This document shows, piece by piece, positions 12,319-61,626 of a DNA stretch of 64,000 nucleotides. The DNA comes from Vibrio sp. JC009. Lineage in GTDB: Bacteria > Pseudomonadota > Gammaproteobacteria > Enterobacterales > Vibrionaceae. Below the pieces are notes generated by a model that was not told where the DNA came from, searched no databases, and was given only the letters and a program-made list of their open reading frames with translations. Both the position numbers and the translations under genes were made by a program. How positions within the stretch are numbered: position 1 is the stretch's first letter; each line of letters starts with the position of its first letter. The stretch is from contig NZ_CP092106.1 in NCBI RefSeq assembly GCF_029016485.1, positions 1,674,001-1,738,000 of the forward strand. The letters are read 5' to 3'.

Positions 12319-12326
12319 TCTCCACT

Positions 12327-12481
12327 GGTTGTACAATGCATGGTTAAATCACAAAAGTTTTAACTCATTCGAAACAACCCCTCCCAGCCTCCCCTTCGAT
12401 GTTACTTCTTCGAAAACCTGGCCTTTCGAGGCTAAGGGGAGGAGCATTCTTTGACCCCTTAAATTGGAGTATAAGAGGCAG
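12327..12481. mobile_element. MITE copy A (truncated, decayed)
   Basis: About 155 bp of the Tn5-end MITE family described at 30430, in the orientation of the copy at 41854. One half is missing; the surviving end (12463-12481) matches the 19-bp outside-end sequence at 15 of 19 positions. It lies between the convergent diguanylate cyclase and hemerythrin-GGDEF-EAL genes. Confidence 0.75.
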
Positions 12482-23758: not shown

Positions 23759-23806
23759 CTGATGCTTATATAAAACCTGTGTAAAAAGCCCAAAGAAGGG
23801 AAAAAG

Positions 23807-24069
23807 TTAACTCTTATACACAAGTTTAAGGAGCCAAAGAATGCTCCTCCCCTTAGCCTCGAAAGGCCGGATTTTCGAAGAAGTAGCATCGAAGGGGAGG
23901 CAGGGAGGGGTTGTTTCTCATGGGTTTAAATTTTGGTGGTCTAACCATGCATGGCATAACCAACCCCCTCTAACTCCCCCTTCTATTAGCTTTATCAACC
24001 AGTTAGGCTTTTTCACTCAAGGGGGAGAACCGTTCTTTGACACGTTAAGCCCATGTTTAAAAAGATAAC
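23807..24069. mobile_element. MITE copy B (263 bp)
   Basis: Full-length relative of the copy at 30430, same orientation and same length. The left end (23807-23825) matches the IS50 outside-end sequence at 17 of 19 positions; the right end is decayed (about 11 of 19). No 9-bp target duplication is visible, so it is an older insertion. Its right end lies 9 bp from the stop of the exonuclease gene. Confidence 0.85.
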
Positions 24070-30407: not shown

Positions 30408-30429
30408 CTGCTGTCTGCGCGCTGTAAGG

Positions 30430-30692
30430 CTGACTCTTATACACAAATTTAAGGAGCCAAAGAATGCTCCTCCCCTTAGCCTCGAAAGGCCGGATTTTCG
30501 AAGAAGTAACATCGAAGGGGAGGCTGGGAGGGGTTGTTTCCTATGGGTTTAAGTTTTGGTGGTTTAACCATGCATGGCATAACCAACCCCCTCTAACTCC
30601 CCCTTCTATTAGCTTTATCAACCAATTAGGCTTTTTCACTCAAGGGGGAGAACCGTTCTCTGGTCACTTTAATATTTGTGTATAAGAGTCAT
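30430..30692. mobile_element. MITE copy C with Tn5-like ends and perfect 9-bp target duplication
   Basis: 263 bp, no transposase. The left end 30430-30448 matches the IS50/Tn5 outside end CTGACTCTTATACACAAGT at 18 of 19 positions; the right end 30674-30692 is its inverted copy with one further difference. Both sides are flanked by GCTGTAAGG (30421-30429 and 30693-30701), the 9-bp duplication typical of IS50-type transposition. The interior holds two stems, CTCCCCTT/AAGGGGAG and CTCCCCCTT/AAGGGGGAG. This is the best-preserved copy and probably the most recent. Confidence 0.93.
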
Positions 30693-33459: not shown

Positions 33460-33649
33460 GGACAGTCCTTTAAGTGTCAGGAATAATTTACACCCAAGTT
33501 TCTCTTAAGGACTTTGCTGCGTCAAGGTATCACGCGCTATTCGTGAGAATTGGCGCGTAATTGATAAAATAATGACCAAATATTACCGCTAATCTCTCCC
33601 CAGACCACTCGTTCCCATGCTTATATGGACTCCCGGGTGTTGTCAAAAA

Positions 33650-33790
33650 GTTTATTAGAACAGAGGTCAGATGCTTGCTTATATACGGGCTCTAACTGAG
33701 GAGCTACCTCGGCCTCTTCGATGTATTCGCACCTTCATGACTTTATCTCCCGCACGGTAGTTTCTACCTGAGCATGGGCCAGTCTCTTGA
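33650..33790 (-). ncRNA. Candidate bridge RNA (seekRNA) of IS-A copy 1
   Basis: Identical in sequence to the region analysed at 60975-61115: two loops with guide segments for target and donor, downstream of the transposase gene. RNA ends are estimates. Confidence 0.65.
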
Positions 33791-33839
33791 AGGTTGGTCT
33801 TACCTGTTTGTTCTTACGTTCTTTTTGACTAACCTGGTA

Positions 33840-34877
33840 TTAAGCCACAAGTGGTTGTGGCTTATATTCCTCATCACTTTTTATCATGGCAAGAGCCGTT
33901 CTCACCGTTTTATTTGCCAAAGCAATAGCTGCAACTTTTTTGCCTCGCCTTGTGGTCAGATCTTTAAGCCATTGCTCTTTTCCTGTCCGGGCTTCTCGTT
34001 TTTCCAGTTTACACACAACTGTTAAGGCTCCTCGAAAGAGTGCACTACGCAACATGTTGTGACCACACTTTTTAGCGATAGAACCTATTTTCTGTTTACC
34101 ACCACTACTGTGTTGAACGGGTGTTAACCCCAGACAAGCTGAAGCTTCTCTACCCTTACTAAAATGCTCTGCCTGGCCTAACGCTACTTTTAATAAAACT
34201 GAGCATACTGGGCCAACCCCCTCCAGAGCTTGTAACCGCCTGCACACTTTATCTTGCGCTATTGACTGCTGTAGTTGTTGTGTAAAAGCTTCTACTTGCT
34301 CTATCAAATTTATAAACTGCTCATACATCTGACTCAGGCAAGCTCTAAACTGGCCGGTTAATCCGTTATCAGCGTCCTCAAGAACATAAGGAATGGCTTC
34401 TCTCAATGCTTTATCACCTTTAGTGATCGGAATGCCAAACTCCAGTAAATAGGAACGCAGTTGATTACTTATACTTACCTTCTGCCTAACCAGTAGATCT
34501 CGCATATGAACGATGGATTGCTGACACTGCTCTTCAACGGTTGGTATGCGACAGGATTTTATTTGAGATTGCGTAGCTGCGATAGCAATGGCAATAGCGT
34601 CATTGGCATCGGTTTTTTGGCCCTGCCTGAATGCAGCTGCCCGACGTGGGGCAATAGCCTTCACTTCATGCCCTTGCTCTTTAGCATATCGAGCCCAATA
34701 GTTGGTTGTACTGCATGACTCCATTGCTACCAGTGTTGCTTTTTCCCTGGCTAAAAATTCCAGCAGTTTCTTACGGCTCATTTCTCGATTAAAAATAATC
34801 TTGCCATCGAAATTCATCTTACAGACCTGAAAAACACTCTTTGCAAGGTCAATAGCAATAACGGTAGAATATTTCAT
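33840..34877 (-). CDS. IS110-family transposase (IS-A copy 1)
   Basis: The 345-residue protein has the IS110 N-terminal RuvC-like DEDD domain: D10 in AIDLAKSVFQV, the Glu of VAMESC, and the Asp pair in KTDANDA. The C-terminal Transposase_20 domain has LEGVGPVCSVLL (helix-hairpin-helix) and REASACLGLTPVQHSSGGK, which carries the catalytic serine of this family. It recombines DNA through an RNA-guided synaptic complex. The frame is intact, identical to two other copies in the window. Its ribosome-binding site AGGAG lies in GGAGTCCATACAT, an inverted copy of the element terminus. Confidence 0.95.
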   Translation of the reverse strand: MKYSTVIAIDLAKSVFQVCKMNFDGKIIFNREMSRKKLLEFLAREKATLVAMESCSTTNYWARYAKEQGHEVKAIAPRRAAAFRQGQKTDANDAIAIAIAATQSQIKSCRIPTVEEQCQQSIVHMRDLLVRQKVSISNQLRSYLLEFGIPITKGDKALREAIPYVLEDADNGLTGQFRACLSQMYEQFINLIEQVEAFTQQLQQSIAQDKVCRRLQALEGVGPVCSVLLKVALGQAEHFSKGREASACLGLTPVQHSSGGKQKIGSIAKKCGHNMLRSALFRGALTVVCKLEKREARTGKEQWLKDLTTRRGKKVAAIALANKTVRTALAMIKSDEEYKPQPLVA

Positions 34878-34949
34878 GTATGGACTCCTTTTGTAAAAGT
34901 TTGGTCGCTTATTACGCTACTCCTGAGGGAGCCGGGAGTCCATACATCT

Positions 34950-35080
34950 CCGGCGTGGGAATGCATACCAGACCAACATCTTGCTATACAGTGATGGATT
35001 ACAGATGAACCGAATTGGCTGTGCTTTATTCTGAAACTTTAACCGAGATATGCATTCCCACGCTGGAGCGTGGGAACGAG
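34950..35080. repeat. Pair of inverted dispersed palindromes (IS110 landing sites)
   Basis: An intact palindrome is seen at 35055-35076 (TTCCCACGC-TGGA-GCGTGGGAA) with tails ATGCA and CGAG. An inverted second unit at 34950-34974 (right arm GCGTGGGAATGCATACCAGA) is interrupted by IS-A copy 1. It thus shows the empty target of both elements: the loop used by IS-A and, at GGTATGCATTCCC (reverse strand), the tail used by IS-B. Confidence 0.85.
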
Positions 35081-41853: not shown

Positions 41854-42115
41854 GTCACTCTTATGCACAATATTAAAGTGACCAGAGAACGGTTCTCCCC
41901 CTTGAGTTAAAAAGCCTAACTGGTTGATAAAGCTAATAGAAGGGGGAGTTAGAGGGGGTTGGTTATACCATGCATGATTAGACCACCAAAACTTAAGCTC
42001 ATGAGAAACAACCCCTCCCAGCCTCCCCTTCGATGTTACTTATTCGAAAATCCGGCCTTTCGAGGCTAAGGGGAGGAGCATTCTTTGGCTCCTTATACTT
42101 GTGTATAAGAGTCAG
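41854..42115. mobile_element. MITE copy D (262 bp) with an exact Tn5 outside-end match
   Basis: Opposite orientation to the copy at 30430. The right end, 42097-42115, is on the reverse strand identical at all 19 positions to the IS50 outside end. The left end (41854-41872) is partly decayed. No target duplication remains. The element reaches to within 2 bp of the stop codon of the HD-GYP gene. Confidence 0.9.
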
Positions 42116-42117
42116 CT

Positions 42118-50943: not shown

Positions 50944-50969
50944 CATTCCCACGCTCCCGCGTGGGAATG
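50944..50969. repeat. Dispersed palindrome carrying IS-B copy 1 at its tail
   Basis: CATTCCCACGC-TCCC-GCGTGGGAATG, 11-bp perfect arms. IS-B begins in the last bases (core TG at 50968-50969). Same repeat family as 35055-35076. Confidence 0.85.
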
Positions 50970-51010
50970 TATATGGACTCCCCCTGTAACACAAGTGGTT
51001 TAAGATAATA

Positions 51011-51166
51011 AGAGTTTATGCAAGTGCACGTATATTCGGTTTCATCATGGGGCGCTACCCCGAACCTTTATGGCTAAATCCACTAACAAGGCTTCTAATC
51101 GCAGTCCAGGCATTTATTGCCTCATTCCCACACAGAGTTTGCCTTGTGTGCTGTGCTAACACTTTA
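51011..51166 (-). ncRNA. Candidate bridge RNA (seekRNA) of IS-B copy 1
   Basis: Identical sequence to the region analysed at 59605-59760. Ends are estimates. Confidence 0.6.
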
Positions 51167-51230
51167 TCTTAATTACTTGCTATTACGCTGGTTTGTCGTT
51201 TGCTCCAAATTCAGCTTTACCTTATTTCAG

Positions 51231-52253
51231 TTAAGCTAACTTAAGCTGGTAAGGCTGTTTTGATTTCAATATGGCACACGCCATCCTGACTATCTTATTC
51301 GCTAGAGCAATAACGACTTTATTCACATGGTTTCTCTCTAACAGAGAGCGTATCCACTGACTAAGTGGATCAGTTTTATCTTTGACATGACTAACTACAG
51401 CTCGGGCACCATGAACGACAAGAGCTCTGAGATAACGATCTCCTCGCTTAGTAATGCCAAGGTTGATATTTCTACCTCCACTTCCTGTATGAGCAGGCAC
51501 TAATCCAATGCTTGCGCTTGCATCCCTACCACACTTATAAGCCGATGCATTTCCTAACCTGGCATACAAAGCACTGCCTGAAATCCATGAAATACCCGGT
51601 AACGAGGCTAAAAGCTTACAATCTTCATTTTGTTTTGCCTGATTGGTAAGAGCTTGAGTGGCATCATCAATTTGGGTATCAAGCGCGAGCAACTGTTCTT
51701 TAAGATTATTTAGAATAAACCGAGCAGCATGGGTTAATTCATTTTCAGCATTTTCCAACTCAAACGGTAGCTGTTTTCTGAGCGAATTGATTCCTATGGG
51801 AAATTTGATGCCATATTCCATCGCAAGCCCCCGGATACGGTTAGCAAGCTGTGTTCGTTGCTTAATATAACCTTCCCGCAGTCTTAGTAAGCAGGCAAGA
51901 TCTTGCTGTTCAACAGTTTTAACCGGAACGAAATGAATATCTGTCCGCTGACTGGCTTCATAAATAGCCAAAGCATCATTGGGATCATTTTTATTTCCCG
52001 AGCGATACTTAGCGGCGATCTGAGCAGGCACGAGTAAGACTTGATGTCCTGCCTGCTGGAACTTTCGACCCCAATAATGAGCCGTTGCACAAGCTTCCAT
52101 ACAAATAACAGCTTTGGGGTGCTTAGCCACCATTGAAATTAACTTTGATTGAGATACTTTTTGATTAGATGAAAGCTTTCCGTGCTTATTAATTATCGCA
52201 ACTTGAATAACAGTCTTAGCAAGGTCGATAGAAATAGTGATATTCTTGTTCAT
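51231..52253 (-). CDS. IS110-family transposase (IS-B copy 1)
   Basis: The 340-residue protein has the DEDD domain (SIDLAKTVIQVAI, ICMEACATAHYW, GNKNDPNDALAIY) and the Transposase_20 domain (LASLPGISWISGSALY, RDASASIGLVPAHTGSGGR with the serine of the family). It is clearly different from IS-A transposase (same family, low identity) but with the same layout. Intact and identical to the copy at 58518. Confidence 0.95.
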   Translation of the reverse strand: MNKNITISIDLAKTVIQVAIINKHGKLSSNQKVSQSKLISMVAKHPKAVICMEACATAHYWGRKFQQAGHQVLLVPAQIAAKYRSGNKNDPNDALAIYEASQRTDIHFVPVKTVEQQDLACLLRLREGYIKQRTQLANRIRGLAMEYGIKFPIGINSLRKQLPFELENAENELTHAARFILNNLKEQLLALDTQIDDATQALTNQAKQNEDCKLLASLPGISWISGSALYARLGNASAYKCGRDASASIGLVPAHTGSGGRNINLGITKRGDRYLRALVVHGARAVVSHVKDKTDPLSQWIRSLLERNHVNKVVIALANKIVRMACAILKSKQPYQLKLA

Positions 52254-52424
52254 GGCATGGGCTCCTTTTTAGTTGACACTCTTACCTTAGCCGATATTTT
52301 CGACGAAGGTGAGGGAGTCCATGCCATTGCATACCAAACTCAAAGATACCGGAAATCGTCCAATGTTTCCGGTATTTGTTTCTTCCTATCAAACGAAAAA
52401 ACAACCTATTTACAACCTTAGATC

Positions 52425-52564
52425 CTAACTCTTATACACAAGTTTAAGGAGCCAAAGAATGCTCCTCCCCTTAGTCTCGAAAGGCCGGATTTTCGAAGAA
52501 GTCACATCGAAGGGGAGGCTGGGAGGGGTTGTTTCTCATGGGTTTAAGTTTTGGTGGTTTAACT
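52425..52564. mobile_element. MITE copy E (left half only)
   Basis: About 140 bp of the MITE. The left end 52425-52443 matches the IS50 outside end at 18 of 19 positions. Similarity stops at about 52564, 45 bp before the DUF294 start codon, so the right half has been lost or replaced by that gene's promoter region. Confidence 0.85.
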
Positions 52565-52608
52565 AATGGTGTACTATAGCTAAGTCTTTGGTTACAGGTG
52601 AATCCTAA

Positions 52609-54495
52609 ATGGATGTAGAATTATTAGAAATTAAAAACTTTATCGCTCAGTACCCGCCATTTTCTGAAATGCCGGAAGAAGCGCTGGAACATATCACTAA
52701 ACAAGTCGAAATCTCCTATTTCCGGGCAGATACGCCGATAATTCATTTCGGTGATCATATCCATGATTTGTATATGGTTCGCAGTGGCGTGGTTGAGATA
52801 CTGCGACGTAGCGGTGAGCTTTATAACCGCCTGGATGAAGGCGACATCTTTGGTCAGATGGGGCTGATGACCAACAACAAAGTCCGCTTCCCGGCCAAAG
52901 CAACGGAAGATACCCTGCTCTACTGTATCCCTGAAGAGCTGTTTCATGAACTTTACGACAACTACGACAACTTTGCCGATTTCGTTGAAGTAGAAAATAA
53001 CGTTCGCTTAAGGCAGGCCATATCCAATAATAACGAAGCCAACGATCTGACCACTTCTAAAGTCACAACCCTTATTACCAAAGAGCCAATCAGCATAACG
53101 ACGACTGAGTCCATTCAGAATGCGGCCAGAAAAATGGCCGATGAAGGCGTATCCAGCCTGATAGTGATGGCCCCGGAACAGGAAGACGAAGAAGAAGATC
53201 AGAACCAGATTGCCGGTATTGTCACCGACCGTGATCTTTGTACCCGCGTTCTTGCAGAAGGGTTAGACCTGACCACGCCAGTTTCAGATGTGATGACCTA
53301 TGAAGTTATCCCGCTGGATCATAACGCCTATGTCTACGAAGCCATGCTAACCATGCTCAGATACAATGTGAACCACCTTCCTATTATTAAGGGTGGCGTT
53401 CCCATTGGTGTTATCGAGACCGCCGATATCGTTCGTTACGAATCGCAGAACTCGCTGCTACTGGTTAACACCATATTCCAGCAGACCACAATTGAAGAAC
53501 TTAAAGCGGTTTCTCAGCAGGTTCGGGACAGTTTTGTCCGTCTTGTTAACGAAGATGCCAACTCGCATATGGTCGGTACCGCTATGTCTGTTATCGGCCG
53601 AAGTTTTAAACAGCGGATTATTGAACTTGCTGAAGAAAAGCTTGGCGTGCCTCCGGTGCCTTACTGTTTTCTGGCGCTTGGATCCATGGCGCGCGATGAG
53701 CAGATTCTGGTTACCGATCAGGACAATGCGATTATCCTTGATGAAAGTTATAACGAAGAAAAGCACGGCGAGTACTTTTCTAAACTGGCGAAATTTGTCT
53801 GTGACGGCTTAGATGAGTGCGGGTACCGCTACTGCACCGGCGACATTATGGCCACCAACCCGATGTGGCGCATGACCCGAAGAGAATGGGAAGAGTGCTT
53901 CTCAGACTGGATTGACAACCCGAATCCGAAAGCCCTGTTGAATGCGTCTATCTTTTTCGATCTGGACGGCATTCACGGCCGCCTGAAATGGGCTGAGCAG
54001 CTTAACAGCTTTATCGTCCGCAGAGCCCGCAAGAACAACCGCTTCCTGGCATGTCTTGCCCGGAATGCGCTAAACCGCACTCCGCCACTGGGCTTTTTCA
54101 AAAGCTTTGTGATGGAAAAAGATGGTCAGCACAAAAACTCCATTAACCTGAAACGCCGGGGTACCGCTCCGCTGGCTGATCTTATCCGCGTTCACGCCCT
54201 GGCGGTGGGCTCACAGTCGCAAAACTCCTTTGAAAGGCTGGATGATATTGAAGAGGCCGGCATTCTTCCTAAGGGACGCGCGCAGGACCTGCGTGATGCG
54301 ATGGAGTTTGTTTCTATGGTACGTATCCGCCATCAGGCGATTGATGTGGAAAGCGGGATTGACCCGGATAACAATATCGAACCGGACAACATCTCAGACT
54401 TTGAACGCAGAAACCTGAAAGATGCCTTCCAGATCCTGAGTAATGCACAGAACTTCCTTAAGTTCCGCTATCAGGCAAGTAACAGTTTTAAATAG
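52609..54495 (+). CDS. cNMP-binding/CBS/DUF294 nucleotidyltransferase-like protein
   Basis: The 628-residue cytoplasmic protein has a cyclic-nucleotide-binding domain (about 15-125, VRSGVVEILRRSGELYNRLDEGDIFGQMGLM), a CBS pair (about 155-290, MADEGVSSLIVM, VTDRDLCTRVL, HLPIIKGGVPIGVIE), a DUF294 nucleotidyltransferase-like domain with LGSMARDEQILVTDQDNAII (GSxxR...DxD) and the DUF294_C domain. Such proteins are predicted signal-transducing nucleotidyltransferases, often near acetate transporter genes; no actP is seen here. The next gene starts 10 bp after its stop. The target is unknown. Confidence 0.92.
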   Translation: MDVELLEIKNFIAQYPPFSEMPEEALEHITKQVEISYFRADTPIIHFGDHIHDLYMVRSGVVEILRRSGELYNRLDEGDIFGQMGLMTNNKVRFPAKATEDTLLYCIPEELFHELYDNYDNFADFVEVENNVRLRQAISNNNEANDLTTSKVTTLITKEPISITTTESIQNAARKMADEGVSSLIVMAPEQEDEEEDQNQIAGIVTDRDLCTRVLAEGLDLTTPVSDVMTYEVIPLDHNAYVYEAMLTMLRYNVNHLPIIKGGVPIGVIETADIVRYESQNSLLLVNTIFQQTTIEELKAVSQQVRDSFVRLVNEDANSHMVGTAMSVIGRSFKQRIIELAEEKLGVPPVPYCFLALGSMARDEQILVTDQDNAIILDESYNEEKHGEYFSKLAKFVCDGLDECGYRYCTGDIMATNPMWRMTRREWEECFSDWIDNPNPKALLNASIFFDLDGIHGRLKWAEQLNSFIVRRARKNNRFLACLARNALNRTPPLGFFKSFVMEKDGQHKNSINLKRRGTAPLADLIRVHALAVGSQSQNSFERLDDIEEAGILPKGRAQDLRDAMEFVSMVRIRHQAIDVESGIDPDNNIEPDNISDFERRNLKDAFQILSNAQNFLKFRYQASNSFK

Positions 54496-55270: not shown

Positions 55271-56845
55271 CTACTCCCTCGGCTCCGTCGTAAGCCCCAT
55301 AAGTAGGCTAATACACATCAATATCATAACAATCGTAAACGGAAGCGCCGTAACGATTACCCCCGCCTGAAGTGCCTGTAGCGCTTCTGCGCCACCGACA
55401 TACAGAAGTACGCCAGCGATTGCGCCTTCAATAACCGCCCAGAATACGCGTTGCGGTACCGGGTTATCGATTTTGCCGCCTGCGGTAATGTTATCAATAA
55501 CCAGAGAGCCGGAGTCTGAAGAGGTCACAAAAAACACCATGATCAGAACAATGGATAACAGCGAAATCACGCTGCTAAGCGGAAGCGAATCGTAAAGATG
55601 GAAAAGAGCCAGGCTGACATCCCCTAACCCGTTTGCGCCAAGTTCACCGACCTTATTAAACACCTGATCAATGGCAATACCACCAAAAGTGGACATCCAG
55701 AGAATAGTGACCAGAGTCGGAACGATAATGACAGCCACCACAAACTCACGGACTGTACGGCCTTTAGAAACACGTGCGATAAACATACCGACAAATGGCG
55801 ACCATGAAATCCACCAGGCCCAGTAGAATACTGTCCAGCCGTGCATCCAGAGCTCATCTTCACGGCCATATGGGTTACTCAGCGCGACAAAGTTCTCGAT
55901 ATAGCCAAGCGTTGTTTCCATCATATAGTGAGGCGCAGTATCTATGGTTACTGCGATCACGAAAAACAGCAGTGCCGCAGCAACGATAATATTGATATTA
56001 CTGATTAGCTTCACGCCGCCTTCGATACCACGATATACAGAATAAGTTGCCAGCAGGGTAACAAATACGATGATCACCATCTGGGTCATCAGACCGCCAT
56101 CGGTGCCAAATACATAGTTGATACCACTGGTTACCTGCTGAGCGCCCAGACCAAGCGAAGGCGCAAGGCCAAAGATGGTGGCGACAACCGCCATAATATC
56201 GATAACGTGGCCAAACCAACCCCAGGCTCTGTCACCAAGGATCGGATAGAAGATAGAACGAATAGAGAGTGGCAGACCTTTATTATAAGCAAAGAACGCA
56301 AGTGCCAGTGCTACCACCGCATACATTGCCCAGGCGTTAAAGCCCCAGTGATAAACCGTCGCGCCAAGCGCAACACGGATCGCTTCTTGGCTATTGGCTT
56401 CCACATTAAGCGGTGTTTCATACCAGCCGGTAAAATAAGCCAGCGGCTCAGCTACGCCCCAGAAAAGCAGCCCGATCCCCATACCGGCGGCAAACAGCAT
56501 CGCCATCCAGGAAAGATTAGAGTGCTCAGGCCTGCAGTCCGTGCCACCGATACGAATTTTGCCATACGGAGAAAGCACCAGACCAATACAGAACAGCAGA
56601 AAGATGTTCCCCGACCACATAAACAGCTCATCAAACTGGTTGATGATACCCCATTTGATGCTATCCAGCGCCGATTTCGCCGTTCCCGGATCCATCACAA
56701 CCAGTGCAATCAAGATCAGCACCATAATCCCGGCACTAAGCCCGAATACAGGGTTATGAACATCAAAACCCCACTTCTGTACGTTATCCTGACCAACCTG
56801 ATAATCGGTACTGTCGATACTGTACTTATCAATTCCTTTTGTCAT
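55271..56845 (-). CDS. BCCT-family glycine betaine/choline-type transporter
   Basis: The 524-residue protein has about 12 membrane helices and the BCCT signatures GMGIGLLFWGVAEP and FYWAWWISWSPFVGMFIARVSKG (tryptophan box of helix 8). VTSSDSGSLVIDNITAGG, a late motif of the family, is also intact. It takes up quaternary amines such as glycine betaine, choline or carnitine with Na+ or H+ and probably serves osmoprotection in a marine cell; the exact substrate is not decidable. The C-terminus is short, without a long osmosensory tail. Confidence 0.93.
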   Translation of the reverse strand: MTKGIDKYSIDSTDYQVGQDNVQKWGFDVHNPVFGLSAGIMVLILIALVVMDPGTAKSALDSIKWGIINQFDELFMWSGNIFLLFCIGLVLSPYGKIRIGGTDCRPEHSNLSWMAMLFAAGMGIGLLFWGVAEPLAYFTGWYETPLNVEANSQEAIRVALGATVYHWGFNAWAMYAVVALALAFFAYNKGLPLSIRSIFYPILGDRAWGWFGHVIDIMAVVATIFGLAPSLGLGAQQVTSGINYVFGTDGGLMTQMVIIVFVTLLATYSVYRGIEGGVKLISNINIIVAAALLFFVIAVTIDTAPHYMMETTLGYIENFVALSNPYGREDELWMHGWTVFYWAWWISWSPFVGMFIARVSKGRTVREFVVAVIIVPTLVTILWMSTFGGIAIDQVFNKVGELGANGLGDVSLALFHLYDSLPLSSVISLLSIVLIMVFFVTSSDSGSLVIDNITAGGKIDNPVPQRVFWAVIEGAIAGVLLYVGGAEALQALQAGVIVTALPFTIVMILMCISLLMGLTTEPRE

Positions 56846-56995
56846 AGTTTCTGCCTAAATCTGTAGATACTAAGAATATGCTAGCACTTATGTAACTAAA
56901 TTTCAGGGGAAGATGAGGAAATGGGGGAATAATGAAAGAAAAACACAAAACACCTCGTTCCCATGCTTATATGGACTCCCGGGTGTTGTCAAAAA

Positions 56996-57136
56996 GTTTA
57001 TTAGAACAGAGGTCAGATGCTTGCTTATATACGGGCTCTAACTGAGGAGCTACCTCGGCCTCTTCGATGTATTCGCACCTTCATGACTTTATCTCCCGCA
57101 CGGTAGTTTCTACCTGAGCATGGGCCAGTCTCTTGA
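56996..57136 (-). ncRNA. Candidate bridge RNA (seekRNA) of IS-A copy 2
   Basis: Same sequence as analysed at 60975-61115. Ends are estimates. Confidence 0.65.
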
Positions 57137-57185
57137 AGGTTGGTCTTACCTGTTTGTTCTTACGTTCTTTTTGACTAACCTGGTA

Positions 57186-58223
57186 TTAAGCCACAAGTGG
57201 TTGTGGCTTATATTCCTCATCACTTTTTATCATGGCAAGAGCCGTTCTCACCGTTTTATTTGCCAAAGCAATAGCTGCAACTTTTTTGCCTCGCCTTGTG
57301 GTCAGATCTTTAAGCCATTGCTCTTTTCCTGTCCGGGCTTCTCGTTTTTCCAGTTTACACACAACTGTTAAGGCTCCTCGAAAGAGTGCACTACGCAACA
57401 TGTTGTGACCACACTTTTTAGCGATAGAACCTATTTTCTGTTTACCACCACTACTGTGTTGAACGGGTGTTAACCCCAGACAAGCTGAAGCTTCTCTACC
57501 CTTACTAAAATGCTCTGCCTGGCCTAACGCTACTTTTAATAAAACTGAGCATACTGGGCCAACCCCCTCCAGAGCTTGTAACCGCCTGCACACTTTATCT
57601 TGCGCTATTGACTGCTGTAGTTGTTGTGTAAAAGCTTCTACTTGCTCTATCAAATTTATAAACTGCTCATACATCTGACTCAGGCAAGCTCTAAACTGGC
57701 CGGTTAATCCGTTATCAGCGTCCTCAAGAACATAAGGAATGGCTTCTCTCAATGCTTTATCACCTTTAGTGATCGGAATGCCAAACTCCAGTAAATAGGA
57801 ACGCAGTTGATTACTTATACTTACCTTCTGCCTAACCAGTAGATCTCGCATATGAACGATGGATTGCTGACACTGCTCTTCAACGGTTGGTATGCGACAG
57901 GATTTTATTTGAGATTGCGTAGCTGCGATAGCAATGGCAATAGCGTCATTGGCATCGGTTTTTTGGCCCTGCCTGAATGCAGCTGCCCGACGTGGGGCAA
58001 TAGCCTTCACTTCATGCCCTTGCTCTTTAGCATATCGAGCCCAATAGTTGGTTGTACTGCATGACTCCATTGCTACCAGTGTTGCTTTTTCCCTGGCTAA
58101 AAATTCCAGCAGTTTCTTACGGCTCATTTCTCGATTAAAAATAATCTTGCCATCGAAATTCATCTTACAGACCTGAAAAACACTCTTTGCAAGGTCAATA
58201 GCAATAACGGTAGAATATTTCAT
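57186..58223 (-). CDS. IS110-family transposase (IS-A copy 2)
   Basis: Same 345-residue protein as at 33840-34877, without change. Intact frames and identical sequence in three copies point to recent activity. Confidence 0.95.
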   Translation of the reverse strand: MKYSTVIAIDLAKSVFQVCKMNFDGKIIFNREMSRKKLLEFLAREKATLVAMESCSTTNYWARYAKEQGHEVKAIAPRRAAAFRQGQKTDANDAIAIAIAATQSQIKSCRIPTVEEQCQQSIVHMRDLLVRQKVSISNQLRSYLLEFGIPITKGDKALREAIPYVLEDADNGLTGQFRACLSQMYEQFINLIEQVEAFTQQLQQSIAQDKVCRRLQALEGVGPVCSVLLKVALGQAEHFSKGREASACLGLTPVQHSSGGKQKIGSIAKKCGHNMLRSALFRGALTVVCKLEKREARTGKEQWLKDLTTRRGKKVAAIALANKTVRTALAMIKSDEEYKPQPLVA

Positions 58224-58517
58224 GTATGGACTCCTTTTGTAAAAGTTTGGTCGCTTATTACGCTACTCCTGAGGGAGCCGGGAGTCCATACATCTCCAGC
58301 GTGGGAATGCATATCGGAGTTAATTTAATCACTTAAACTCTAACGCGAACCGTGTCCTGAATTAACTTAAAACACCTTTAAATCAAAAGGTTAAAGAGCA
58401 TAAGATTAAGCGAAGTGGATGATTACGGTGAATCTGGTATGCAATGGCATGGACTCCCTCACCTTCGTCGAAAATATCGGCTAAGGTAAGAGTGTCAACT
58501 AAAAAGGAGCCCATGCC

Positions 58518-59540
58518 ATGAACAAGAATATCACTATTTCTATCGACCTTGCTAAGACTGTTATTCAAGTTGCGATAATTAATAAGCACGGAAAGCTTTC
58601 ATCTAATCAAAAAGTATCTCAATCAAAGTTAATTTCAATGGTGGCTAAGCACCCCAAAGCTGTTATTTGTATGGAAGCTTGTGCAACGGCTCATTATTGG
58701 GGTCGAAAGTTCCAGCAGGCAGGACATCAAGTCTTACTCGTGCCTGCTCAGATCGCCGCTAAGTATCGCTCGGGAAATAAAAATGATCCCAATGATGCTT
58801 TGGCTATTTATGAAGCCAGTCAGCGGACAGATATTCATTTCGTTCCGGTTAAAACTGTTGAACAGCAAGATCTTGCCTGCTTACTAAGACTGCGGGAAGG
58901 TTATATTAAGCAACGAACACAGCTTGCTAACCGTATCCGGGGGCTTGCGATGGAATATGGCATCAAATTTCCCATAGGAATCAATTCGCTCAGAAAACAG
59001 CTACCGTTTGAGTTGGAAAATGCTGAAAATGAATTAACCCATGCTGCTCGGTTTATTCTAAATAATCTTAAAGAACAGTTGCTCGCGCTTGATACCCAAA
59101 TTGATGATGCCACTCAAGCTCTTACCAATCAGGCAAAACAAAATGAAGATTGTAAGCTTTTAGCCTCGTTACCGGGTATTTCATGGATTTCAGGCAGTGC
59201 TTTGTATGCCAGGTTAGGAAATGCATCGGCTTATAAGTGTGGTAGGGATGCAAGCGCAAGCATTGGATTAGTGCCTGCTCATACAGGAAGTGGAGGTAGA
59301 AATATCAACCTTGGCATTACTAAGCGAGGAGATCGTTATCTCAGAGCTCTTGTCGTTCATGGTGCCCGAGCTGTAGTTAGTCATGTCAAAGATAAAACTG
59401 ATCCACTTAGTCAGTGGATACGCTCTCTGTTAGAGAGAAACCATGTGAATAAAGTCGTTATTGCTCTAGCGAATAAGATAGTCAGGATGGCGTGTGCCAT
59501 ATTGAAATCAAAACAGCCTTACCAGCTTAAGTTAGCTTAA
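58518..59540 (+). CDS. IS110-family transposase (IS-B copy 2)
   Basis: Same 340-residue protein as at 51231-52253. AGGAG 7 nt before the ATG lies in GGAGCCCATGCC, an inverted near-copy (11 of 12) of the element's left terminus GGCATGGACTCC (58446-58457). Confidence 0.95.
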   Translation: MNKNITISIDLAKTVIQVAIINKHGKLSSNQKVSQSKLISMVAKHPKAVICMEACATAHYWGRKFQQAGHQVLLVPAQIAAKYRSGNKNDPNDALAIYEASQRTDIHFVPVKTVEQQDLACLLRLREGYIKQRTQLANRIRGLAMEYGIKFPIGINSLRKQLPFELENAENELTHAARFILNNLKEQLLALDTQIDDATQALTNQAKQNEDCKLLASLPGISWISGSALYARLGNASAYKCGRDASASIGLVPAHTGSGGRNINLGITKRGDRYLRALVVHGARAVVSHVKDKTDPLSQWIRSLLERNHVNKVVIALANKIVRMACAILKSKQPYQLKLA

Positions 59541-59604
59541 CTGAAATAAGGTAAAGCTGAATTTGGAGCAAACGACAAACCAGCGTAATAGCAAGTAATT
59601 AAGA

Positions 59605-59760
59605 TAAAGTGTTAGCACAGCACACAAGGCAAACTCTGTGTGGGAATGAGGCAATAAATGCCTGGACTGCGATTAGAAGCCTTGTTAGTGGATTTAGCCA
59701 TAAAGGTTCGGGGTAGCGCCCCATGATGAAACCGAATATACGTGCACTTGCATAAACTCT
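59605..59760 (+). ncRNA. Candidate bridge RNA (seekRNA) of IS-B copy 2
   Basis: Loop 1: GTGGGAATG (59640-59648) is the exact reverse complement of the right target with core, CA-TTCCCAC; a GGCA/TGCC hairpin; then CTGGACTGCG (59662-59671) resembling the left target with core CTGGTATG-CA at 7 of 10. Loop 2: GCCAT (59697-59701) complements the left IS end ATGGC; ATATAC (59736-59741) equals the right IS end ATATA plus the first core base. The order is the same as in IS-A. RNA ends are estimates. Confidence 0.65.
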
Positions 59761-59887
59761 TATTATCTTAAACCACTTGTGTTACAGGGGGAGTCCATAT
59801 ACATTCCCACGCAGGAGATGTATGGACTCCCGGCTCCCTCAGGAGTAGCGTAATAAGCGACCAAACTTTTACAAAAGGAGTCCATAC

Positions 59888-60925
59888 ATGAAATATTCTA
59901 CCGTTATTGCTATTGACCTTGCAAAGAGTGTTTTTCAGGTCTGTAAGATGAATTTCGATGGCAAGATTATTTTTAATCGAGAAATGAGCCGTAAGAAACT
60001 GCTGGAATTTTTAGCCAGGGAAAAAGCAACACTGGTAGCAATGGAGTCATGCAGTACAACCAACTATTGGGCTCGATATGCTAAAGAGCAAGGGCATGAA
60101 GTGAAGGCTATTGCCCCACGTCGGGCAGCTGCATTCAGGCAGGGCCAAAAAACCGATGCCAATGACGCTATTGCCATTGCTATCGCAGCTACGCAATCTC
60201 AAATAAAATCCTGTCGCATACCAACCGTTGAAGAGCAGTGTCAGCAATCCATCGTTCATATGCGAGATCTACTGGTTAGGCAGAAGGTAAGTATAAGTAA
60301 TCAACTGCGTTCCTATTTACTGGAGTTTGGCATTCCGATCACTAAAGGTGATAAAGCATTGAGAGAAGCCATTCCTTATGTTCTTGAGGACGCTGATAAC
60401 GGATTAACCGGCCAGTTTAGAGCTTGCCTGAGTCAGATGTATGAGCAGTTTATAAATTTGATAGAGCAAGTAGAAGCTTTTACACAACAACTACAGCAGT
60501 CAATAGCGCAAGATAAAGTGTGCAGGCGGTTACAAGCTCTGGAGGGGGTTGGCCCAGTATGCTCAGTTTTATTAAAAGTAGCGTTAGGCCAGGCAGAGCA
60601 TTTTAGTAAGGGTAGAGAAGCTTCAGCTTGTCTGGGGTTAACACCCGTTCAACACAGTAGTGGTGGTAAACAGAAAATAGGTTCTATCGCTAAAAAGTGT
60701 GGTCACAACATGTTGCGTAGTGCACTCTTTCGAGGAGCCTTAACAGTTGTGTGTAAACTGGAAAAACGAGAAGCCCGGACAGGAAAAGAGCAATGGCTTA
60801 AAGATCTGACCACAAGGCGAGGCAAAAAAGTTGCAGCTATTGCTTTGGCAAATAAAACGGTGAGAACGGCTCTTGCCATGATAAAAAGTGATGAGGAATA
60901 TAAGCCACAACCACTTGTGGCTTAA
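59888..60925 (+). CDS. IS110-family transposase (IS-A copy 3)
   Basis: Same 345-residue protein as the other IS-A copies. The leader contains 13-bp inverted repeats, 59818-59830 and 59877-59889; the second includes the ribosome-binding site and start codon. Confidence 0.95.
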   Translation: MKYSTVIAIDLAKSVFQVCKMNFDGKIIFNREMSRKKLLEFLAREKATLVAMESCSTTNYWARYAKEQGHEVKAIAPRRAAAFRQGQKTDANDAIAIAIAATQSQIKSCRIPTVEEQCQQSIVHMRDLLVRQKVSISNQLRSYLLEFGIPITKGDKALREAIPYVLEDADNGLTGQFRACLSQMYEQFINLIEQVEAFTQQLQQSIAQDKVCRRLQALEGVGPVCSVLLKVALGQAEHFSKGREASACLGLTPVQHSSGGKQKIGSIAKKCGHNMLRSALFRGALTVVCKLEKREARTGKEQWLKDLTTRRGKKVAAIALANKTVRTALAMIKSDEEYKPQPLVA

Positions 60926-60974
60926 TACCAGGTTAGTCAAAAAGAACGTAAGAACAAACAGGTAAGACCAACCT

Positions 60975-61115
60975 TCAAGAGACTGGCCCATGCTCAGGTA
61001 GAAACTACCGTGCGGGAGATAAAGTCATGAAGGTGCGAATACATCGAAGAGGCCGAGGTAGCTCCTCAGTTAGAGCCCGTATATAAGCAAGCATCTGACC
61101 TCTGTTCTAATAAAC
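60975..61115 (+). ncRNA. Candidate bridge RNA (seekRNA) of IS-A copy 3
   Basis: Loop 1: CCCATGCT (60987-60994) is the exact reverse complement of the right target AG-CATGGG; hairpin GGTAG-AAA-CTACC; then GCGGGAG (61012-61018) equals the left target GCNGG-AG at all fixed positions. Loop 2: ATACATC (61039-61045) is the reverse complement of the left IS end G-ATGTAT; ATATAAG (61081-61087) equals the right IS end ATATA-AG. Both loops have the same topology: 5' guide for core plus right half, 3' guide for left half plus core. RNA ends are estimates. Confidence 0.7.
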
Positions 61116-61182
61116 TTTTTGACAACACCCGGGAGTCCATATAAGCATGGGAACGAGAGGCTGTACACTAACGGTACTTTTT

Positions 61183-61253
61183 GGGAAAGCCTTCCAACAA
61201 ACACTTTCCCAGGAACCAGGGCCCAATAACCCTGGTCCCCTCCCGCAACGGGA
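61183..61253. repeat. Three adjacent hairpins
   Basis: GGGAAAG/CTTTCCC (61183-61210), ACCAGGG/CCCTGGT (61215-61236) and TCCCG/CGGGA (61241-61253) stand in a row after the stop of the reverse-strand gene at 61255. They may act as its terminator; no long T run is present. Confidence 0.55.
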
Positions 61254-61254
61254 A

Positions 61255-61626
61255 TTAGCAAGCCTTATAGATAACCTTATTACCCGCAAGCTGCTCTTTA
61301 ACTACAAGGTTTTCTTCCAGAAGCTTCTTCAGCGCACCTGTCGCCCAGGATGCTGCTTTTGCGTCTTCCTGACCCGCTTCAAGGCCGATACCTTTAGGGT
61401 TGATACCTTCAGCATTCTTAGCAACGATATCCAGTACCTGCTGCTGCTTTGGAGTCAGAGATACTTCTGCTTTTTTCGCTACTGATTCAACTTTCTCTGC
61501 AACCACTTTTTCAGCTACCGCAGCAGTTTTCTTTTCTGCCTGTGGAGTAACCAGTTTAGTGCCAACAGTTAATTTCAGACGCTTTTGCAGTTTCATCTGC
61601 ACTTTACGTTTATGAGCAAGTCTCAT
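61255..61626 (-). CDS. Small basic protein with winged-helix-like C-terminus
   Basis: The 123-residue protein starts with a basic segment (MRLAHKRKVQMKLQKRLKL), has an Ala/Lys/Glu-rich linker (AAVAEKVVAEKVESVAKKAE) and a C-terminal region LTPKQQQVLDIVAKNAEG...SWATGALKKLLEENLVVKE that looks like a winged helix-turn-helix of MarR type. AAGGA about 11 nt before the first ATG supports this start. It may bind nucleic acid. I do not recognise a named gene. Confidence 0.75.
   Translation of the reverse strand: MRLAHKRKVQMKLQKRLKLTVGTKLVTPQAEKKTAAVAEKVVAEKVESVAKKAEVSLTPKQQQVLDIVAKNAEGINPKGIGLEAGQEDAKAASWATGALKKLLEENLVVKEQLAGNKVIYKAC

Follow-up and report, generated by a model that had tools for sequence, protein, structure and literature searches.

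How does an insertion sequence that recurs at one kind of site in a bacterial genome find that site? The 64,000-nucleotide stretch analysed here (the window) carries three copies of such an element, IS-A, and the whole genome holds nine full copies with common ends and 100% (rounded) identity. The copy described below occupies 59818–61145 on the plus strand (59818–61143 plus one AG core); the other two window copies lie on the minus strand, L008 at 56954–58314 and L007 at 33605–34967, each span being a repeat arm that takes in a few flanking bases. IS-A is an IS1111-type element. Its transposase/recombinase (59888–60925, +; 345 aa, inside the IS1111 range of 330–350 aa) is of the DEDD type, matches PF01548 (1e-16) and PF02371 (4e-16), and contains GLTPVQHSSG, an instance of the GL-P----S(T)G motif that the accessible portion of PMC11187229 gives as an IS1111 family trait of the C-terminal domain. 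The left subterminal inverted repeat (STIR; TATGGACTCCCGG, 59821–59833, +) forms a 13-bp inverted match to the right one (CCGGGAGTCCATA, 61129–61141, +), within the 7–17 bp reported for IS1111 elements (PMC11208160), and nine of nine copies follow the IS1111 habit of one target in one orientation. From the stop codon to the right STIR runs a 203-nt non-coding region (NCR; 60926–61128, +). This long region lies downstream of tnp, so IS-A departs from the upstream RNA of IS110 elements proper (IS621-like).

We consider it very probable that this 3′ non-coding end encodes an IS1111-type bridge/seek RNA that aims insertion at a REP. That reading draws on complementarity, most of the predicted stems, the parallel change of guides and targets, and the insertion sites themselves; transcription and processing of the RNA, protein binding, circle formation and strand exchange would proceed as in published IS1111/IS110 work.

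The initial annotation had picked out four guide segments in this 3′ end, and all four are present. The right target guide (RTG; CCCATGCT, 60987–60994, +) is antisense to AG-CATGGG, with 8/8 bases complementary, and the left target guide (LTG; GCGGGAG, 61012–61018, +) is the sense of GCNGG-AG; in a predicted first internal loop the two would flank hairpin P3, GGTAG-AAA-CTACC (GGTAGAAACTACC, 60997–61009, +). A predicted second loop would hold the left donor guide (LDG; ATACATC, 61039–61045, +), antisense to the left end G-ATGTAT, and the right donor guide (RDG; ATATAAG, 61081–61087, +), the sense of the right end ATATA-AG. At the left junction, GCAGG-AG (left target and core, 59811–59817, +; core 59816–59817) is followed by ATGTATGG; at the right junction, ATATA is followed by AG-CATGGG (core and right target, the rest of the REP, 61144–61151, +; core 61144–61145). 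The three window insertions do share the AG core, as first proposed. This core is complete in the RTG, LTG and RDG; the proposal that all four guides contain it falls short for the LDG, which has one of the two core bases and is followed by G where T would be needed for core pairing. By analogy with published systems, the guide RNA would be bound by the DEDD transposase, loop one would pair with the REP repeat and loop two with the excised circle where its ends are joined, and recombination between these two DNAs would take place at their common AG core.

In IS-A the top-strand match precedes the bottom-strand match in the 5′-to-3′ direction, as in IS1111 seekRNA. CCCATGCT arose in 319 of 200,000 mononucleotide shuffles of the NCR, and together with an at least 6/7 match to GCGGGAG 18–39 nt downstream in 4 of 200,000, in shuffles that do not preserve dinucleotides and for segments that had been picked by a reader. 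An Rfam scan of 56500–61500 returned no family up to E 1, and a promoter scan of 59700–61260 gave 2 sites against 1.9 expected.

All nine IS-A copies have AG-CATGGGAACGAG (AG-CATGGG) as their right flank, in one orientation. On the left, eight copies have GCNGG (N = A, A, A, T, G, T, C, T) and L009 has GGAGG; core and right half are thus the same in every copy, and the positions that differ are −3 and −4 on the left. The genome-wide rule GCNGG-AG-CATGGG, suggested at the outset, holds on the right in 9/9 copies and on the left in 8/9. The variable N, which sits under a G of the LTG and is itself G in only one of nine copies, had been called the only guide mismatch; genome-wide, L009 also departs, at position −4, so a mismatch is tolerated there too.

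In its uninterrupted form, the IS-A site corresponds to the loop region within a palindromic repeat, GGTATGCATTCCCACGCNGGAGC(A/G)TGGGAACGAG, which we call REP-like by analogy. Searching the genome by pattern gave 75 intact repeats (backwards control, 0), a census that excludes pattern-departing copies, five of which also carry AG-CATGGG. The 75 comprise 31 GCNGG-AG-CGTGGG, 27 GCNGG-AG-CATGGG, 13 GGNGG-AC-CATGGG, 3 GGNGG-AC-CGTGGG and 1 GTNGG-AG-CGTGGG. IS-A occupies AG-CATGGG repeats 9/0, compared with 27/48 among the intact pattern-matched repeats (Fisher p = 2.6e-4). Within AG-core repeats, A versus G at the base separating CATGGG from CGTGGG is 9/0 for IS-A and 27/32 for intact repeats (p = 0.0025); for AG versus AC core alone, the IS-A preference is not significant (p = 0.20). 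The separating base, A, lies under the RTG. Only 27 of the 75 intact repeats carry AG-CATGGG, yet all IS-A copies are there; hence the choice follows the guide-covered base. As a separate observation, these 75 pattern-matched intact repeats occur in a genome with no match at E 1e-3 to a Y1 (RAYT-type, PF01797) transposase, the type sought as REP partner.

Guide–target covariation was measured in two sets of homologues. The transposase had matches in 100 of the 196 genomes searched, own genome included. Set 1 held 115 loci, including 30 loci plus 60 further places among the transposase matches listed; 20 were dropped (element truncated, or STIR missed by the TGGA/TAGA rule), and the 95 with both ends yielded 63 distinct NCRs in 37 groups at 85% similarity, with the duplicate IS-A copies L012, L026, L027 and L058 merged by identical NCR. 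Set 2 began with 108 further loci (4 plasmid, 80 from named genomes, 24 from viral contigs) under the same rules; 47 were dropped, L152 included, 61 were kept, and removal of five near-copies of set 1 left 43 groups, filtered against set 1 at 85% NCR similarity so that remoter kinship remains. A contig scan with the single IS-A protein matched 7 stretches, with no relative among them; one with alignment A2 led to 80 loci. Element ends were found automatically and sometimes wrongly: the counts retain L170, whose true ends differ from those used, and L225, L233 and L249, which look doubtful.

For the RTG, the 10 nt of right flank from the core were reverse-complemented and the best ungapped match in the element's own NCR was compared with that in the others; for the LTG, 8 nt of left flank were used in sense, with own and swapped NCRs compared over 10,000 permutations. 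In set 1 (37 groups), the RTG scored 7.81/10 in own NCRs versus 6.63 swapped (z 9.2) and the LTG 6.78/8 versus 5.83 (z 9.1), each with 0/10,000 permutations as high. Wrong-strand controls gave z 0.1 (left flank) and −0.3 (right flank), and flanks 16, 30 and 50 nt further out gave z 0.8, 0.7 and 0.3. The RDG, in sense, reached z 2.2, 6.6 and 7.0 at 6, 7 and 8 nt, versus 1.4, 1.1 and 2.2 on the opposite strand; the LDG, in antisense, reached 2.5, 3.5 and 2.3 at 7, 8 and 9 nt, and is the guide with the weakest comparative support among the four. Set 2 (43 groups) gave z 10.8 for the RTG, 12.3 for the LTG, 8.0 for the RDG and 4.0 for the LDG (donor guides at 8 nt), with controls at 1.8 (sense right), −0.2 (antisense left) and 0.9 (far flank). 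In both sets the guide shifts along with the target, which bears out the initial reading of these segments as RNA guides.

Across relatives, the predicted guides change with the target, though some groups do not fit. In set 1, 23 of the 37 groups score at least 8/10 for the RTG, nine score 7 and five score 6, the last falling under the swapped mean. For several, L067, L070, L120 and L137 among them, a best guide match falls elsewhere than in the expected loop, and the order of all four guides, taken from unconstrained best matches, is kept in only 9/37 groups.

The same region has a predicted fold in which the guides are exposed. We drew six helices by hand on a MAFFT alignment of 14 NCRs and compared them with 500 shuffles, comparisons that are inflated by the close kinship of about half of the 14. 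Stem P1 (CCTTCA, 60972–60977, with TGAAGG, 61028–61033, +) is paired in 98.8% of cells, with double changes in 4/6 pairs. P4 (GGC/GCC, 61051–61077, +) encloses hairpin P5 (GAGG, 61055–61058, with CCTC, 61064–61067); they are paired in 94.6% and 87.5% of cells, with double changes in both. P6 is paired and nearly invariant, and a double change was never seen in it. P2 (GACT, 60981–60984, with AGTC, 61023–61026, +) is weak, at 51.8% paired in the MAFFT alignment, and P3 reaches 62.5%; arms picked by eye gave 0.82 versus 0.52 swapped for P2 and 0.82 versus 0.54 for P3. The weakness of these two stems is due in part to alignment offsets visible in L001. Overall, 82.7% of cells are paired, versus 69.9% in shuffled and 30–40% in slid alignments; double-change pairs number 16 versus 8.6, and the covariation score is 0.384 versus 0.156, with 0/500 shuffles as high on any of these three and slid controls far lower. 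Further pair types, one of five measures, number 30 versus 25.2, a value reached by 11/500 shuffles.

The loops proposed from a single sequence held up across the 14 homologues: stems surround the guides, and RNAalifold, unprompted, recovered P1, P4 and P6 and left all four guides unpaired. On a first, wider NCR alignment, RNAalifold gave nothing informative. When the IS-A RNA is folded alone, its two target guides partly pair; they are partly complementary because the REP is palindromic. Taken together, the predicted structure has covarying stems on either side of the internal loops in which the guides lie, with excellent support for P1, good for P4 and P5, and weak for P2 and P3.

Close relatives of IS-A appear to have been reprogrammed naturally. 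A target loop of 36–37 nt between like P2 arms is found in IS-A, in its nearest relative, Vibrio ouci L152 (70% identical), and in Pseudoalteromonas L148 and L149 (61% identical to IS-A). Read by eye, V. ouci L152 has RTG GCAACGCT for AG-CGTTGC and LTG GCCAAG for GCCAAG, and Pseudoalteromonas L149 has RTG TAGGGTCT for AG-ACCCTA and LTG TCAACAG for TCAACAG; in both, again by eye, the scaffold is retained and the guides are rewritten for the target. The fit is uneven elsewhere: L148 has the guide of L149, yet its right target matches at 7/10; Oleispira L153 keeps CCGTGCC with a mismatched guide core; and in Bowmanella L154 the right guide is a misfit (6/10, elsewhere in the NCR) and the left matches at 7/8. 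Four further loci, L074, L096, L097 and L098, have one identical NCR and differing cores (CG, TG, AG, CA), and after the core comes a stretch that ends in GGGG; this is a relaxed-core relative. Loci L121–L125 and L131–L136 lie at TAACGA / GC-C... sites, which we take to resemble integron attC. We likened them to the IS1111-attC group, which appears in the reference list of PMC11187229; their targets and guides differ from those of IS-A.

Could the transposase itself read the REP hairpin, by shape or sequence, with the NCR matches incidental or a relic of an earlier insertion? IS-A's own genome leaves room for this account, since all 32 uninterrupted GGAGCATGGG 10-mer sites are REP-like (27 among the 75, five variants) and the 10-mer therefore cannot separate REP shape from guide sequence. 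Relatives at other sites, however, have guides fitted to their own targets, and the fit is confined to the strand sense that was predicted; within REPs the nine copies chose CATGGG and never CGTGGG, even though repeats of either kind are palindromic. We regard direct reading of the hairpin as very unlikely. Agreement between guide and target might instead come from shared descent of the flanks, a concern raised by permutations that treat groups as exchangeable when related groups with like targets exist (L067 and L068, for instance) and by a filter between sets that acts at 85% NCR similarity only. Yet the opposite strand of the same flanks stays at z −0.3 and 0.1 in set 1 and 1.8 and −0.2 in set 2, and like targets raise the swapped scores, which makes the own-versus-swapped test conservative. 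The probability that relatedness explains the agreement is, in our judgement, negligible.

A conserved RNA could also serve mainly to regulate transposase expression, target matching being secondary. The model would be ISPpu9, whose downstream sense sRNA Ssr9 and upstream antisense sRNA Asr9 are said to regulate tnp in the text available of PMC8450116. A regulatory role gives no reason to expect a retained scaffold with loops that vary according to insertion site, and as the main role of the IS-A RNA we find it very improbable; regulatory and targeting roles are not mutually exclusive.

An insertion-guiding RNA, the account we favour, places IS-A beside elements already described. As far as the accessible text of PMC11187229 goes, seekRNAs are established for IS1111, with the NCR usually downstream and the top-strand match 5′ of the bottom-strand match, and ISEc11 has been retargeted by altering guides together with donor flanks. 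IS-A resembles ISEc11, ISPa11, ISKpn4 and ISPst6 from that partial source in its NCR downstream of tnp, its transposase of 330–350 aa, its STIRs and its order of matches, and ISPa11 likewise targets a REP; it differs from all four in element, guides and REP sequence, and its RNA is predicted from sequence. The guide order is the one that the same text calls reversed between the IS1111 and IS110 families. Like the IS110 bridge RNA (IS621; PMC11208160), the IS-A RNA would have target and donor guides on two loops around a core dinucleotide, complete in three of the four IS-A guides; the IS110 group has its RNA in the left (5′) end and STIRs of 2–3 bp, whereas IS-A has its predicted RNA in the right end and STIRs of 13 bp. 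REPs are reported as IS110 targets in the available part of PMC1525189. There and in the available part of PMC8450116, ISPpu9, ISPpu10 and ISPa11 have copies at a fixed point in REPs, as IS-A does, and ISPpu9 has an AG direct repeat comparable to the AG core; those are Pseudomonas REPs, whereas in the present case the REP is also entered at a different point by a second element, IS-B. In a literature search of a limited collection and set of terms, IS-A was not named in the titles or abstract openings found. The match of guide order and place to published IS1111 seekRNA is convincing, and makes IS-A a further example of an established RNA-guided transposon type.

The left end of IS-A has another feature. 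A third, RE-oriented copy of the left-end sequence (GGAGTCCATACAT, 59877–59889, +) covers both the start codon of tnp and its ribosome-binding site, and in the predicted mRNA fold it pairs over 13 bp with the left end at 59818–59830 (−34 kcal/mol, z −3.0). Own-versus-swapped comparison of this repeat gave z 6.4 in the 37 groups (reversed control z 1.3) and z 3.8 in the second set (reversed control z 3.7); a similar third repeat is present in some relatives, and its generality is mixed. TTGACA can be read in the IS-A right end, and joining the ends as in a circle would place a −10-like TAAGAT at a distance of 17 nt. Tentatively, and with some doubt, we suggest that the start-codon hairpin couples the transposase to the circle. 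In a read-through mRNA the third repeat would pair with the left end and shut translation of the transposase; junction-started transcripts would begin inside the left end, lose part of the arm and be translated. If this reading is true, both the transposase and, through it, the use made of the guide RNA would depend on the circle. For ISPpu9, the accessible text of PMC8450116 reports that 5′-UTR structure also controls the transposase. A second possibility, raised just as tentatively, is that IS-A has left departure scars. Two REPs, L010 (G000:C2:1830818-1830843) and L011 (C1:150886-150911), both read GCGGG-AG-ATGTATGG-GAACGAG, in which 8 bases from the start of the IS-A left end are joined to the right target at the common ATGG; with at most one mismatch, the pattern occurs only at these two places. 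They look like scars of departed IS-A copies, or a REP variant.

IS-B, also an IS1111-type element, has two window copies (58429–59817 and 50954–52342) among sixteen, inserted at TATG-C(A/G)-TTCCCACG, the foot of IS-A's REP, with CA on the right side in 14 copies and CG in 2. Its NCR holds GTGGGAATG, 9/9 antisense to CATTCCCAC and thus an exact right-target guide; the left guide fits less well by eye (GGACTG-CG vs GGTATG-CA). IS-A copies L001 and L004 sit in a REP also occupied by IS-B. Elsewhere in the genome, one place among the matches listed (L090, G000:C1:1100460-1103285) is a third IS1111-type element, with a transposase 43% identical. The window also contains a dispersed repeat of ~140–250 nt at five places (23803–24039, 30426–30662, 41869–42116, 52421–52657 and 12326–12481), in both orientations and with 66–95% similarity, depending on pair and length.

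For an uncharacterised IS1111 element, raw sequence can reveal the target, and comparative evidence is by itself enough to check it. With two elements at two points of one REP, these repeats are a shared landing pad. The IS-A clade, in which RNA scaffold and transposase are alike and guides and targets differ, forms a natural reprogramming series, from which one can learn at which guide positions reading is strict.
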